Made by a program: the position numbers and the translations under genes. The notes under the pieces were generated by a model that was given only the letters and a program-made list of their open reading frames with translations, had not been told where the DNA came from and ran no database searches. Positions 4,098 through 44,228 of a stretch of DNA of 64,000 nucleotides are shown one piece after another. Source of the DNA: Microbacterium terricola (GTDB lineage Bacteria; Actinomycetota; Actinomycetes; Actinomycetales; Microbacteriaceae); NCBI RefSeq assembly GCF_027943945.1, contig NZ_AP027141.1:1364001-1428000 (forward strand), read 5' to 3'. How positions within the stretch are numbered: position 1 is the first letter of the stretch; each line of letters starts with the position of its first letter.

Positions 4098-5408
4098 TCC
4101 GTGTCGGGGATCCCGTACGGCGGCGAGGAAGAGCGGCCATCCGGTCTCCGTGTGCGACACGGAGACGATGAACGGCCGGTCGAATGCGACCTCGTGATCC
4201 ACCACGTCTGCGGAGGTCGCCACGATGCCGAGTTCCGTGACCGCAGCAGCCACGGTGCCGTCCTCGTCGATCGTGAGCATGCTCTGCTGCGCGGCTTGAC
4301 CGAGGCACAGCTCGGCGTCCGCGATCCCGCGCAGATCTGTCCTGGACCCGCACCGGAGGCTGCCGAGGCCGAGGGCGGGCAGCATCGGCACCACGTCCAG
4401 CGCCGGCGGAGCGATGTCGAGCGTGGGCAGCGCGAGACCGATGCGCGCGAGTGCGGCGCTGTCGAGCGAGCTCGACACAGCGTCCAGCAGGTCGGGGGTC
4501 AGCGCGGCCGGGTCCGTTCCCGTGGGCGGCAGCAGGACGTCGGCGTGCAGCGCATCGGTGTAGGGCAGGCGCAGCGCCACCCAGCCGTCGACCTCCGCGT
4601 ATGCGGCGTGGAGGTCGTGGCTGCTCATGGTCTCGACATCGACCGTCTTGCCGTCGCCGAGCCTGAACGGAGCTGCTGAGGTGTTGGAGGCGTCGAACGG
4701 CGTCCGCCAGCGCGCCGCCAGGACGATCGCGTCCTGCAGGACGAGCTTCAGGTCACGGTTCGGAGTGATCGCCGACTCCTCGATCAGTCCCCCGGTGTGG
4801 CGGGCCACCCACTCGTCGAGCACCGCCTTGCCCGACGCAGAACTCAAGTCGGCATACTGCACGCCGGCGTCGAAGCCCGACGCGAGGGCGCGAAGATAGT
4901 CCTCGTGCACAGGGAAGCCTCCATGCACGACGACCTCGTCGGCGAGGTGCACGAGTGGGCGCTCCGGAAGGTCGCCTCCCGTTGCGGACGCGGGATCCCC
5001 GTCCCACTCGAGCAGTGCAGCCCGCAGGGCGGCGAAGGCATCGCGCCGCTCGGCTCCGGGCGCGCCGAGGACGTTCTCCAGCTCGGCGAGGCTCGCACCG
5101 CCGACGCCCTCGGCGAGCATCGCCAGCGCGGTCGCGAGGCCCGCCGGCGAGACCACCGCGTTCTGGTCCTGCGGGGCCAGCGACAGCGCCGTCGTGCCGA
5201 GCGCGCGGCTCGCTTCGACCACCGCAGGGACGGCGGTCGCCTCCGACAGGGTCACTGTCCGCAGCGCGACATCGTCGGCGCGCACGAATGCCGACTGCGA
5301 ACTGGGCGGAGTCGAAGAGCTCGCGCACGCGCCGAGCGACACGGCGGACGCCAGGGCGCACGCCGCCGCCGCGCCACGTCGCCACACCAGCGACCTCGGT
5401 GTCCCCAT
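4095..5408 (-). CDS. Serpin-family lipoprotein (serine protease inhibitor)
   Basis: A 437-residue exported lipoprotein. The N-terminus has basic residues, a hydrophobic stretch and a lipobox (LGAC, lipidated Cys near residue 25). The rest follows the serpin fold: NAVVSPAGLATALAM near the N-terminus, the central AARWRTPFDASNTS segment, a hinge of the form DGTVAAAVT, and the C-terminal RPFIVSVSHTETGWPLF. The Ala-rich hinge is typical of inhibitory serpins. By counting from the hinge, the scissile bond would fall near a Thr-Ser pair, but this is only an estimate. Its likely role is to protect the cell envelope from host or competitor proteases. The ATG is preceded by TATGAT with a 6-base gap, so it is probably leaderless. 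Confidence 0.9.
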   Translation of the reverse strand: MGTPRSLVWRRGAAAACALASAVSLGACASSSTPPSSQSAFVRADDVALRTVTLSEATAVPAVVEASRALGTTALSLAPQDQNAVVSPAGLATALAMLAEGVGGASLAELENVLGAPGAERRDAFAALRAALLEWDGDPASATGGDLPERPLVHLADEVVVHGGFPVHEDYLRALASGFDAGVQYADLSSASGKAVLDEWVARHTGGLIEESAITPNRDLKLVLQDAIVLAARWRTPFDASNTSAAPFRLGDGKTVDVETMSSHDLHAAYAEVDGWVALRLPYTDALHADVLLPPTGTDPAALTPDLLDAVSSSLDSAALARIGLALPTLDIAPPALDVVPMLPALGLGSLRCGSRTDLRGIADAELCLGQAAQQSMLTIDEDGTVAAAVTELGIVATSADVVDHEVAFDRPFIVSVSHTETGWPLFLAAVRDPRHG

Positions 5409-5414
5409 CCGCGG

Positions 5415-5420
5415 ATCATA
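5415..5420 (-). promoter_or_regulatory. -10 box of the serpin gene
   Basis: TATGAT on the minus strand, 6 bases before the ATG at 5408, consistent with a leaderless transcript. Confidence 0.5.
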
Positions 5421-5452
5421 CCGACGCGCGGCGCTCCGGTGTCGAGACAGGG

Positions 5453-7783
5453 TCAGCCGTCGGTCGACAGCGCGTACTCCCCCTCGGCGCAGCCGGTCAC
5501 GATCCAGCCACCGGGCACCTGAGCCGTGGCGACGTCGGTGACCCCCGACACGGTGACGTCGGGCTCGACCGCGCCAGGCACCCACACTTCCAGACCGCAG
5601 CTCTGCTCGTCTGCCCGCCCGGCGAGGTCGACGTGGGTGCCGTCGCCGGTGAGTGCCGTGAGCACCCCGGGCGCCGACCGGGGATAGGCCCGACCCAGGA
5701 TCTCGAGGAGGTCGGTGCGGGGTGCGACGTCTTCTCCTGTCGCGCAGTCCGTGCGCATGAGGGCATCGGTCACGTCGACGATCCCGCCCTGCGGGTCGCC
5801 GCACGCCTGCCGCCAGACCCAGTAGGCGCTGCCGAGCCGGTGCTGGTCCTCGAGGTCCGCGTAGCGCGTCAGCTTTTCCACGCGGTCGGCGTCCTCGCCC
5901 CAGTAGCCGTACTCCCCCGACCACAGCGGAGCGCCGTAGGCGTCGGCCGCGCGCTGCGCGAGGGTGAACTGACGCTCCATCGACACGATCGGCGGGAGGC
6001 CGAGCGCGCGGTCCATCGTGATCGACTCGGCGTAGAGGTGCGGGGAGAACACGATGTTGCGGTCCGAGGTGAACCGCGGCGGAGGGCCGCTGTCGAACCC
6101 GAGACCCGACCAGAGGATGCTCGGCTCGACGAACACGATCTGCGGCGCGCCGGCGTCGCGGATCGCCTGGATCGCGCGGTCATAGAACCGACCAAGGAGG
6201 AACGATGTCGTGACCGGCGCGGTCTCGCCGAAGCCCGGCTCGTTCATCAGGTCGAATCCCGCGACGGCCGGCTCGTCCCGGAACTCTGCCGCGAGCGCGG
6301 CCCATGTCGAGATCAGAGCGGTCTGGACGCCGTCGGCGTCGAAGTAGAAGTTCTGGAACGCCCGGTCGCTGGCGGGCGAGATGTCCCGACCCTGGAACTG
6401 GCAGCGTGGCGCGCCATCCGTCTTCGTGGCCCACGCCGGCGCTCCGTCGTATCCCCACATCGGATCCGTGCCGGCACGGCATTCCGCGTCGGCCGGGGTT
6501 CCCTCGTTCCACCACGAGTCCTGGTGCATGTCGAGCACGACGTACAGGCCGTGCGCGTCGGCGAGTTCGACCGCCTCGTCGATCTGCTTCAGGTACGCGT
6601 CGCTCAGGGTGCCCCTGGTCGGCTCGAGCGCCGACCAGGAGATGTTCAGCCGCACCACGTTGAAGCCCTGCGCCGCGATCCCGGCGACGTCGTCCTCGGT
6701 CAGGGGCGTGGTGTCGTCCACCTCGGGCCGGGGGCGGTAGAAGTCGACGAGCTGGTTGACGTTGACGCCGCGGAGCAGGACCTCGTTGCCCTCCCCGTCC
6801 GCGATCACGCCGGATTCGGCGCGCAGGAACCCTGAGTCGATCTGATCGTCGGATGCTGCCGCCGCACCGGTCGGAGGGGTCAGGGCCGTCACGGCCACTG
6901 CAATGACGGCCACCGCGGCGATACCCGCCGCGGCGAACCGGGGGGCGCGCACGCCGCTCTTGGCGAGCACTCGATCGGCGACGACGGCGCCCGCACCGGC
7001 GATCCAGCCCAGGCACGCTCCAAAGGACAGGCCGTCCGCGACGGCGACGTACGCCGACATCAGCGGCCACATGTCACCGTGGAACCCGTCGACGACGAGG
7101 GCGATCAGCGCCTGGAGCAGGCCGACGATGCCTCCGGCGACCAGCGCGGCCAGCCAGCCGGCGAGCACTCCGGGAACGCGGGCGCGCATCCACTGCAGGC
7201 ACAGTGCGGTGGCGCCGGCGATGAGCACCATCGCGACGACGACCGACAGCACGCCGCGGTCGGGGCGCGCCGCGGGCACGCCGGGGGCGTAGACCGTGCT
7301 CGTCCACCACAGGCCGGCGAGCAGGGGCGCGGTGGCTGCGAAGAGCGCGGCGGGCACCCAGATGGCGCCGGGTTCGTGCTTCTGGCGGTCGGAGGGGCCG
7401 CCGAACCATCGCGCGAACGCAGCGACGATCAGCGCCGCAGGCACCGCCTTGGCGGTGACGTACGCGGCGGCCCAGGCGGCGATCGCGGGATCCCAGGTCA
7501 TGACGAGGCCGGTGGCCGCCTGCGCCAGCATCACCGCGAGGACGACACCGGGTACGAGGGTCCAGAAGCGGTCCCCTGCGCGGACCGAGACCCACCACAG
7601 TACGCCGAGCAGGACGGGCAGGTAGACCACGTACGGTGCCCATGTCCAGGCGGCGTCGACGCGTGCGCCGGCGCCGGACCATCCCACGAGCGCGAGCAGC
7701 CCGGTGGGGTCGGCGATCGCCTGGACGGCGACCAGGGCGAGCATGGTGATGAGCGCGACGACGGGACGTCGGATGGGCCTCAT
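5453..7783 (-). CDS. Membrane-anchored GH5 glycoside hydrolase (endoglycoceramidase-like)
   Basis: A 776-residue two-part protein. The first ~320 residues are strongly hydrophobic, with about eight or nine predicted membrane segments. The remainder is a glycoside hydrolase family 5 domain: LLRGVNVNQL at its start, FNVVRLNISWSALEP, HGLYVVLDMHQD, the acid/base Glu in DLMNEPG, and the nucleophile Glu in WSGEYGYWG. A small beta-rich domain follows. The GH5 sequence most resembles endoglycoceramidase-type enzymes, which cleave the glycan from glycolipids. Substrate and orientation are inferred; the hydrolase is presumably outside the cell. The ATG is chosen because GGAG precedes it by 4 bases. Confidence 0.85.
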   Translation of the reverse strand: MRPIRRPVVALITMLALVAVQAIADPTGLLALVGWSGAGARVDAAWTWAPYVVYLPVLLGVLWWVSVRAGDRFWTLVPGVVLAVMLAQAATGLVMTWDPAIAAWAAAYVTAKAVPAALIVAAFARWFGGPSDRQKHEPGAIWVPAALFAATAPLLAGLWWTSTVYAPGVPAARPDRGVLSVVVAMVLIAGATALCLQWMRARVPGVLAGWLAALVAGGIVGLLQALIALVVDGFHGDMWPLMSAYVAVADGLSFGACLGWIAGAGAVVADRVLAKSGVRAPRFAAAGIAAVAVIAVAVTALTPPTGAAAASDDQIDSGFLRAESGVIADGEGNEVLLRGVNVNQLVDFYRPRPEVDDTTPLTEDDVAGIAAQGFNVVRLNISWSALEPTRGTLSDAYLKQIDEAVELADAHGLYVVLDMHQDSWWNEGTPADAECRAGTDPMWGYDGAPAWATKTDGAPRCQFQGRDISPASDRAFQNFYFDADGVQTALISTWAALAAEFRDEPAVAGFDLMNEPGFGETAPVTTSFLLGRFYDRAIQAIRDAGAPQIVFVEPSILWSGLGFDSGPPPRFTSDRNIVFSPHLYAESITMDRALGLPPIVSMERQFTLAQRAADAYGAPLWSGEYGYWGEDADRVEKLTRYADLEDQHRLGSAYWVWRQACGDPQGGIVDVTDALMRTDCATGEDVAPRTDLLEILGRAYPRSAPGVLTALTGDGTHVDLAGRADEQSCGLEVWVPGAVEPDVTVSGVTDVATAQVPGGWIVTGCAEGEYALSTDG

Positions 7784-42459: not shown

Positions 42460-43488
42460 TCAGCTCGACCGGTAGTCCCTGTCCACCAGGGGTGAGATCC
42501 GCAGCGCGATCTCCTCGCCGATCGACCCGATCCGCTCGGCCAGATCGGTCGCGGACGCCGCGCCTTCGCCGTAGACGGTGACGACGTCGCCGACGGCGGC
42601 GTCTTCCCAGCGGTCGACGATGCTCTGCTCGAGACCGAGGGCCCGCAGCGGCCGCATGCCGCCGGGTGTGCGCACGTCGACCAGCCCGGCCAGGGTGGAC
42701 GGCAGGCCGTCCAGCGCGCCGATGCCGATGACGGCGTGCTCGTCGTCAAGGCGGATGACGGATGCCGTCAGCGCCGCGATCGGGCGGACCCCCAGTTCCG
42801 GCTCCCCCGGACCGCCGGCGGGGCGGATCCCGTAGGCGAACGCGCCGATGCGCGCGAGGTCGTACCGGAACTCCGGCCGCGCGAACGCGGCGGCGCTCGC
42901 GGACAGATGCCGCAGCGAAGGCCGGAGGCCGGCCTCCTGCGCCGTCTGCACGGCGGCGTCGAACGCGGCACGAGCGGCGTCGTCCTCGGCATCGGAGGCC
43001 TCGGCGATGTGGCTCCAGATGCCGACGACCTCGAGGATGCCGTCCGCCTCCAGCGCGGCCGCGCGCGCGACGAAATCCGGCCAGTGCTCCGGCCGCACGC
43101 CGTTGCGGTGCAGGCCGGAGTCGATCTTCAGGTGCACGCGGGCGCGTCCGCCCGCTGCCGCGACGTCCTCGAGCAGGAGGGCGTCGCCGACACCGATGTC
43201 GAGATCGGCGGCGACGGCGCGCGCCGCCTCCTCCGCGGTGGCGACGATCCACACGAAGATCCGGGCCTCGGGGCCGAGCTCGGCGCGCACCTGCAGGCCG
43301 GTGCGGACGTCGAAGGCGCCGAACCACTGCACGCCCTCGCTCCACGCGCGGGCGACGATCGGCGCGAGGCCGTGGTTGTAGGCGTCGTCCTTCACGACGA
43401 GCATGTGCGCGGCGGGCGCGACCTGCGCGCGGACGCGGCGCAGGTTCTCGGCGAAGGCGTCGAGGTCGACGCGCAGGACGGCGCTCAC
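42460..43488 (-). CDS. Alanine-racemase-like protein with PLP lysine but no catalytic tyrosine
   Basis: 342 residues. The N-terminal TIM barrel is complete: PLP Lys33 in VVKDDAYNHG, HLKIDSGLHRNGV and RIGAFAYGIRP. In the C-terminal beta domain, the position where racemases have the catalytic Tyr motif VSYG is occupied by unrelated sequence (IGIGALDG region), and the GRxxMD substrate-site motif is replaced by RALGLEQ. The GTG start overlaps the stop of the next racemase-like gene (GTGA), so the two are translationally coupled. It could be a non-racemase PLP enzyme or one half of a heterodimer. Confidence 0.8.
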   Translation of the reverse strand: MSAVLRVDLDAFAENLRRVRAQVAPAAHMLVVKDDAYNHGLAPIVARAWSEGVQWFGAFDVRTGLQVRAELGPEARIFVWIVATAEEAARAVAADLDIGVGDALLLEDVAAAGGRARVHLKIDSGLHRNGVRPEHWPDFVARAAALEADGILEVVGIWSHIAEASDAEDDAARAAFDAAVQTAQEAGLRPSLRHLSASAAAFARPEFRYDLARIGAFAYGIRPAGGPGEPELGVRPIAALTASVIRLDDEHAVIGIGALDGLPSTLAGLVDVRTPGGMRPLRALGLEQSIVDRWEDAAVGDVVTVYGEGAASATDLAERIGSIGEEIALRISPLVDRDYRSS

Positions 43489-44228
43489 GACGTGTGCTCC
43501 CGCTGACTGCGGGTGCCGACCGCGGTGACGATCTCGGCAGCCGTCAGGCCTGTCGCGGCGGTCCAGGGTGCGAGCGACGGGTGCCCGGAGTCGGGGTCGC
43601 CGAAGAACTCCACGTGGTCGCCGCGCTCGACGGAGGCATCGCCGATGTCGACGACGCACACGTCCATCGCGACGCGTCCGATGAGGGGCCGTCGCGCACC
43701 GGCGACGAGCACGTCCACCGCGCCGCCCAGCGAGCGGACGATGCCTTGGGCGTAGCCGCCGGTGACGAGCGCGATCCGCGTGTCGGCCGGCGCCCGATGC
43801 AGGTACCCGTACGAGACGCCCTCGCCGGCACGGAGCTCCTTCACGCTCAGCACGAAGCCGCGCAGGTGCATGACCGGCCGTCCGCCCGAACCAGGGAGGC
43901 CGTAGAGGGCGGCGGCGTCGAGCGTGGCGCCGGCATCGGCGCCGGCATCGGGCTCGGCACGGTAGCGCGCAGCATCCGCTCCGTCGCGCCCGCCCGGCAG
44001 GCTCGACTGCTTCACGATCACGGCGTCGACCCCCACCCCGAACAGCGTGCGGGCGACGAGTCTCTCGCCATGGCCCCACGCATCGTGGCGCAGGTCGGCG
44101 ACCGTCTCTCCTCCGCCTGCCGCCGCGAGGAGGGCCGCCGCGTTCGCGCGGAGAGCGCTGTGATCGATCGAGGCGACGGGTGCGCTCCTGCGCGGACCGG
44201 GGGTCTCGCCCAGGGTCGCCGCAGTCAC
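43485..44228 (-). CDS. Alanine-racemase C-terminal-domain protein with reduced barrel and no PLP lysine
   Basis: 247 residues. The short N-terminal part keeps the outline of a racemase start (ASIDHSALRANAAALL) but reads LRHDAWGHG where racemases have VKADAYGHG, so Arg47 replaces the PLP lysine. About 170 residues of barrel are missing before LYGLPGSGG. The C-terminal domain is intact: Tyr140 in GVSYGY, GGYAQGIVR and GRVAMD. The features are complementary to those missing from the overlapping downstream gene. A TAGTCT -10 lies 7 bases before the GTG. Confidence 0.8.
   Translation of the reverse strand: MTAATLGETPGPRRSAPVASIDHSALRANAAALLAAAGGGETVADLRHDAWGHGERLVARTLFGVGVDAVIVKQSSLPGGRDGADAARYRAEPDAGADAGATLDAAALYGLPGSGGRPVMHLRGFVLSVKELRAGEGVSYGYLHRAPADTRIALVTGGYAQGIVRSLGGAVDVLVAGARRPLIGRVAMDVCVVDIGDASVERGDHVEFFGDPDSGHPSLAPWTAATGLTAAEIVTAVGTRSQREHTS

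Follow-up and report, generated by a model that had tools for sequence, protein, structure and literature searches.

Two overlapping genes of Microbacterium terricola as putative subunits of a single-site heterodimeric amino-acid racemase

Alanine racemase (Alr), a drug target, is a textbook example of a homodimer with shared sites. In the Alr dimer, each active site takes the barrel and a gate tyrosine from one subunit and the C-terminal domain from the other, and the partner-side residues are a catalytic tyrosine, a second tyrosine, two arginines, a methionine and an aspartate (PMC3146814, PMC4517790). The gate tyrosine is held to restrict the pocket to alanine (PMC3485190, PMC4517790). The lysine-preferred and broad-specificity racemases (Lyr/Bar) are described as fold-type III enzymes in which this tyrosine is replaced and an asparagine stands beside the arginine that orients the pyridoxal 5'-phosphate (PLP), with lysine as the best substrate (PMC3485190). 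A further precedent comes from the trypanosomatid deoxyhypusine synthase and S-adenosylmethionine decarboxylase (AdoMetDC) prozymes, in which a duplicated enzyme yields paralogs that are inactive, or nearly so, singly and work only together (PMC3663545). Here we compare with these systems a pair of overlapping genes, A and B, on the minus strand of a 64,000-nt stretch of M. terricola DNA (NZ_AP027141.1, positions 1,364,001 to 1,428,000; the window), which belongs to a 3.25-Mb single-contig genome. Judged from sequence, gene distribution and structure models, A and B very probably form one fold-type III, PLP-dependent amino-acid racemase, in which both subunits are obligate and share a single composite site.

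The domain content of the two proteins was compared with Pfam. A matched Ala_racemase_N (PF01168) with 171 bits over positions 1-220 of 220, and Ala_racemase_C (PF00842) with 26.5 bits only, the match beginning at position 31; the hairpin with VSYG and the GRxxMD motif were both missing. B matched Ala_racemase_C with 110.6 bits over positions 1-126 of 127, and Ala_racemase_N with 12.8 bits only, over positions 1-54 of 220. The barrel plus C-domain fold of the fold-type III PLP racemase superfamily was thus found. The original prediction had described a downstream gene with a full barrel and Lys33 lacking the VSYG tyrosine and GRxxMD, and an upstream gene that keeps Tyr140, has Arg47 for the lysine and is short of about 170 barrel residues. 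Sequence reading and Pfam bore this out for A, and so did the codons of B, for which about 166 barrel positions were unmatched. The 4-nt GTGA overlap of the two genes was also present (Table 1); it may enforce their equal synthesis, with which the natural 1:1 fusions agree. In the pair, the PLP lysine and the catalytic tyrosine never stand on one chain, the lysine being only in A and the tyrosine only in B; the natural fusions have both. A separate canonical alr, whose presence had been left to be checked, was found at full length elsewhere in the genome (about 489.9-490.97 kb), with the lysine, VSYG, GRIAMD and a TINYE gate.

We then counted conservation in 120 sequences per protein, namely the query and the best 119 other matches listed, and in a family-wide sample of 42 A, 41 B and 25 canonical rows. 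Motif positions were mapped by us onto P0243 and the gate position was set by alignments to 1vfh and 2dy3; residue numbers of A in these counts follow P0001, one higher than from the GTG start (K34 is Lys33, E326 is Glu325). Lys34, Tyr38, Lys122, Arg129, His161, Ala165, Ser199, Arg214 and Gly216 of A were invariant (120/120). Tyrosine was absent from its second-tyrosine position (0/120; Ala 64, Ser 45) and arginine from its first entryway arginine position (0/120; Ser 117, Thr 3). The A of the window has lost all six partner-side residues, two by deletion and four by change to Ala, Ser, Leu and Glu. In B, the corresponding Tyr140, Tyr159, Arg165, Arg185, Met188 and Asp189 were invariant in 120/120, and position 47 never held lysine (0/120; Arg 85, Glu 15, Ala 7, Thr 4, Pro 4, Asp 3, Ser 1, Gln 1). 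Across the family, Tyr265', Arg309' and Met312' were gone from 42/42 A rows and Arg290' from 41/42. All 41 B rows had the catalytic tyrosine and none the PLP lysine, with the second tyrosine replaced by Phe in 4, Arg185 by Ala in 1 and Asp189 by Asn in 8. The canonical rows kept all partner-side residues (25/25, with Asp or Asn at the last position). The two residues first noticed therefore belong to two residue sets that segregate, fully in the genus and nearly so in the family.

As a separate observation, the canonical GYADG at residues 158-162 of B (window 43743-43757) reads GYAQG in 118 of 120 Microbacterium-type B proteins. This Asp to Gln change adjoins the second tyrosine, and many B rows from other genera retain the Asp.

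Table 1. Features of the A/B gene pair, in positions of the window.
Feature	Position	Strand	Remark
Gene A	42460..43488	-	342 aa from GTG at 43488; putative racemase half, PLP barrel intact, C-domain degenerate
Gene B	43485..44228	-	247 aa; putative racemase half, short barrel stub, C-domain intact
GTGA overlap of B stop and A start, 4 nt	43485..43488	-	read on the sequence
PLP lysine Lys33 of A (VVKDDAY)	43390..43392	-	codon read on the sequence; Lys in 120/120
Glu325 of A (P0001 E326), acidic at the Alr Tyr354 gate (GSIGEE vs GTINYE)	42514..42516	-	alignment to 1vfh and 2dy3
Arg47 of B, replacing the PLP lysine (LRHDAWGHG)	44088..44090	-	codon read on the sequence
Catalytic Tyr140 of B (GVSYGY), equivalent of Alr Tyr265'	43809..43811	-	codon read on the sequence
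Partner-side C-terminal domain of B, residues 119-244	43497..43874	-	PF00842 span; carries Tyr140, Tyr159, Arg165, Arg185, Met188, Asp189

In the proposed enzyme, A would hold PLP on Lys33 in its own barrel, and the C-terminal domain of B would dock on the mouth of that barrel and give Tyr140 as the second acid/base, together with Tyr159, Arg165, Arg185, Met188 and Asp189. The mirror-image site, made of the B barrel and the A C-domain, would be dismantled on both sides, and the heterodimer would have one site instead of the two of an Alr homodimer. For A/B, we infer that the two proteins pair physically in a 1:1 ratio and are catalytic, racemizing by two bases, and likewise we infer the substrate; one A per B agrees with the tight overlap of the genes and with the natural fusions, which are 1:1. 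The pair resembles homodimeric Alr (TIGR00492) in fold, PLP lysine motif, partner-side tyrosine, entryway residues and a site across the subunit interface (PMC3146814). The difference is that Alr has identical subunits and two sites, whereas A and B are two unlike genes giving half each to one possible site, and the A gate is Glu or Asp.

The pair may instead be prozyme-like, with A weakly catalytic alone, B an inactive activator or stabiliser and the B tyrosine chemically unused. Catalytically dead paralogs do activate their partner in trypanosomatids (PMC3663545), and B is a degenerate paralog. However, the six partner-side residues are invariant in B while lost in the A of the window, and an allosteric activator would not need such invariance, and we regard this alternative as unlikely. 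Moreover, the described prozymes are eukaryotic, with one dead partner that allosterically activates an impaired one (PMC3663545), whereas the loss in A and B is reciprocal and their genes overlap or fuse. The strict co-occurrence of A and B would fit a mutual dependence of the prozyme type.

This co-occurrence was counted in 149 genomes of the genus. A was detected in 124 at 1e-60 and B in 122 at 1e-33. When the two seemingly A-only genomes were read, B was present in both, as a split pair in one (G352) and as one fused frame in the other (G383). B was therefore found in 124/124 genomes with A, and none of the 25 A-free genomes had B at 1e-33. Relatives keeping one gene alone, which would speak against an obligate pair, were looked for among these 149 genomes, and there were none.

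In the wider family sample (299 genomes), 40 B-like rows, a subset of the matches listed, were fetched with their surroundings, and the other half adjoined B in all 40 loci. By automatic start calls, the genes overlapped by 4 nt in 29 loci, by 1 nt in 3 and by 8 nt in 2, and were separated by a gap of 5-44 nt in 4; the gene order was reversed in 2/40. parE lay within the fetched stretch in 37/40 loci, as supported by domain search, and the neighbour in one further locus is presumably sigA. Around parE in 80 named loci, 27 had both halves, 2 had an A tail at the contig end, and 51 had neither in the examined stretch. The genomes of 33 of these 51 were searched whole, and 2 of them, M. schleiferi FXH-192 and a record titled Planococcus sp. 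APC 4015, had the pair elsewhere (L142, L143). Natural B-A fusions on a single chain occurred in several lineages. An order-wide profile search gave no B outside Microbacteriaceae among the matches listed, which were mostly canonical Alr because the query alignment included a canonical row; coming from a list of limited length, this is weak evidence. The best match outside the family among those listed (202 bits in a 405-aa frame) was a whole Alr.

These results bear on the reading that A and B are unconnected non-racemases, either PLP-barrel or PLP-free proteins, which just happen to be neighbours. Neither protein reached the 168-bit cut-off of TIGR00492 (Alr, NCBIfam), A scoring 134.7 and B 102.2 bits, as this reading would have it. 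Its difficulty lies in the fusions and the 124/124 co-occurrence, and in B, whose largely missing barrel precludes the known mode of PLP binding by B alone. We consider it very unlikely. Overall, the idea of a single-site heterodimer was supported by the complementary residues, the strict co-occurrence, the adjacency, the natural fusions, the confident single-chain models of two of these, and a second genus in which only such halves were found in seven of eight genomes.

This genus, here called g78, is the one whose nearest named parE region is Herbiconiux. Exactly four Ala_racemase_C domains were present at 1e-3 in 7/8 genomes, two good and two degenerate; at an E value of 10, a fifth match (16 bits) appeared in one of five genomes. 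In five of these seven genomes, a search with the barrel family gave two barrels of >170 bits each, with the other matches at <=66 bits. The first pair of these seven genomes is the usual B/A with an acid gate, and was beside parE in the two loci examined. The second begins with A', a canonical-type barrel with a Tyr gate in which VSYG and GRxxMD no longer match by pattern (7/7), followed by B', which has Thr for the PLP lysine (7/7), VSYG (7/7) and GRIAMD (6/7 by pattern). These genomes, which are 99-100% complete (barrel family searched in five), yielded no gene that combines Lys and Tyr, and a D-amino acid transaminase above the TIGR01121 cut-off was found in 0/5 g78 genomes and not in M. 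terricola (best 64 bits against 277). In the seven split genomes, the searches turned up no other protein of the Alr fold as a possible source of D-alanine. The eighth genome (G711) contains only two C-domains. They belong to alr (TINYE) and alr2 (TIGDE), which stand as an unsplit tandem, and both genes retain Lys, VSYG and GRIAMD.

Nine of the 33 whole-searched genomes carried a tandem of alr and a full-length acid-gate alr2; they came from Curtobacterium (5 genomes), Herbiconiux, Frigoribacterium, Frondihabitans and Subtercola (L132-L137, L168-L170). The barrels of alr2 and A group together and share the Glu/Asp gate. In contrast to the pair, alr2 is a complete single gene with Lys and Tyr, an expected homodimer, and stands beside alr and not parE. 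Quick trees, with Shimodaira-Hasegawa-like approximate likelihood ratio test (SH-aLRT) support only, included two A' barrels and four B' C-domains. The A' barrels fell with canonical alr (support 100), the B' C-domains nested within the alr2 group with its acid gate (support 88 where they join three alr2 rows and 100 for B' alone), and B formed one separate group (96). These placements indicate that the same reciprocal decay of a racemase arose at least twice. The alr2 barrel goes with A, whereas the alr2 C-domain falls with canonical alr and not with B, a discordance suggestive of recombination or of repeated splitting. Another type of Alr-like paralog, with a His gate and mostly VGYG or VGYD, was seen in Okibacterium, Salinibacterium and Curtobacterium (L138-L141).

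Several points weigh against the heterodimer. The family-wide loss in A is incomplete, Tyr284' surviving in 11/42 rows and Asp313', the Asp of GRxxMD, in 31/42. Co-occurrence within one genus partly reflects shared descent, the counts being of genomes. That g78 would need the split enzyme for D-alanine rests on an intact Alr and a transaminase not being found. The complex model called for in the original prediction was obtained for natural fusions only; two B-A fusions were predicted as single chains with predicted template modelling scores (pTM) of 0.89 and 0.88, which signify confident placement and say nothing of where Lys and Tyr sit. The fusions were aligned with A rows only, or, for P0244, with both A and B rows, where the last part of B still drifted; in the alignment with A rows (A3), only 6 rows covered the B part, and in the fold comparison most rows spanned the A part only. 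One in-frame stop occurred in the matched span of 3/124 A rows (G332, G387, G429) and 1/122 B rows (G379); these may mark real decay or may be the stop codon of B, read where A begins. In Homoserinibacter gongjuensis (L104), A spans two frames (5305-6354 and 5138-6232), with a frameshift either in the gene or in the record.

Such stops would suit a decaying duplicate, in which A and B are functionless remnants of an alr duplication, and so would the large deletions in both paralogs and the full canonical alr in the same genome. Yet the invariant residues across 120 sequences each, the absence of stops from 121/124 A matches and 121/122 B-positive genomes, the strict co-retention, the tight overlap in many genera, the natural fusions and the seven g78 genomes in which only such halves were found make this explanation extremely unlikely. 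In the AlphaFold model m01eacf4da61b, residues 21-120 show the B barrel stub as an ordered strand-helix unit, with block means >90 in predicted local distance difference test (pLDDT) and the lysine gone; the stub is dropped in fusions P0245-P0248.

For the substrate of the heterodimer, the gate position is informative. It was Glu in all 120 A sequences counted, and Glu in 22, Asp in 18 and Tyr in 2 of the 42 family-wide rows, the two Tyr rows being the A' rows of g78. The position in B held no Tyr in 120/120 and was mostly Ala, Gly or Ser; the canonical rows had Tyr in 25/25. With a canonical alr in the genome and Glu in place of the gate Tyr354, the substrate of the pair in the window is probably not alanine, and the acidic gate suggests a basic side chain. 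The asparagine after the PLP-orienting arginine is present in A (N130, 120/120), and also in the canonical Alr of the genome. Lyr/Bar enzymes are homodimers with a Thr or Ala gate and no Lys129, whereas the gate of A is Glu/Asp and the Lys129 equivalent, Lys122, is kept in 120/120, which places A outside that group. Given that the enzyme is a racemase, ornithine or lysine is quite possible as the substrate, though somewhat short of an even chance.

Group B peptidoglycan is a classical chemotaxonomic marker. The cell walls of the family are reported to contain D-Lys, Orn, D-Orn, Lys or diaminobutyric acid (DAB) (PMC7033078 table, PMC10757982). Among the B2-beta genera, Frigoribacterium has D-Lys and Frondihabitans Orn in the wall (PMC7033078); both have the acid-gate enzyme (one genome searched each), which fits the ornithine/lysine reading. 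In the M. testaceum clade, D-Orn occurs in three of four species (PMC10757982). M. testaceum has the A/B pair, which also speaks for it. Acid-gate Alr2 was found in 5/5 Curtobacterium genomes. The Curtobacterium wall contains D-Orn. Two genomes of Salinibacterium, a genus with Lys and Orn, showed no acid gate, which is against this reading or neutral. Tyr-gate Alr only was found in the whole-searched genomes of Cryobacterium (5/5) and Agromyces (5/5). The Agromyces wall contains DAB. The wall-type match is partial: DAB-containing Cryobacterium does not fit, and neither does Agromyces if DAB is indeed its wall diamino acid. DAB is described for Cryobacterium walls (PMC7033078), and strain 1639, whose genome was outside the whole-genome searches, is reported with ornithine too (PMC12113805).

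Among the papers listed in searches of the open-access literature, none described an alanine racemase that is heterodimeric or split, subscription papers being mostly outside that search, and none named a D-ornithine/D-lysine racemase for Microbacteriaceae. What would be new is the subunit architecture; the fold and the chemistry are already known. The composite picture, in which reciprocal decay arose at least twice in Microbacteriaceae, one genus has both racemases only as heterodimers and makes its D-alanine on a split enzyme, and the acid-gate pair makes D-ornithine or D-lysine for the cross-bridge of group B peptidoglycan, is tentative and, taken as a whole, less likely than not. A natural single-site heterodimer, if true, would illustrate cleanly how complementary degeneration can lock two paralogs together, a single bacterial family containing the unsplit tandem, the split pairs and the re-fused forms, and would permit direct experiments on the origin of obligate heteromers and on interface specificity. 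If the substrate guess is true as well, the pair would explain where D-ornithine or D-lysine of group B peptidoglycan can come from.

The pair in the window is neighboured by a sugar-transfer-type ATP-grasp gene (PF14397; 44273-45295, plus strand) and an F420-ligase-like gene (PF01996; 45484-46197, minus strand). The divergent ATP-grasp neighbour was considered as a functional partner and dropped, being detected beside the pair in only 6/40 loci. Either neighbour could act in ligation chemistry, and their adjacency to the pair is not well conserved.
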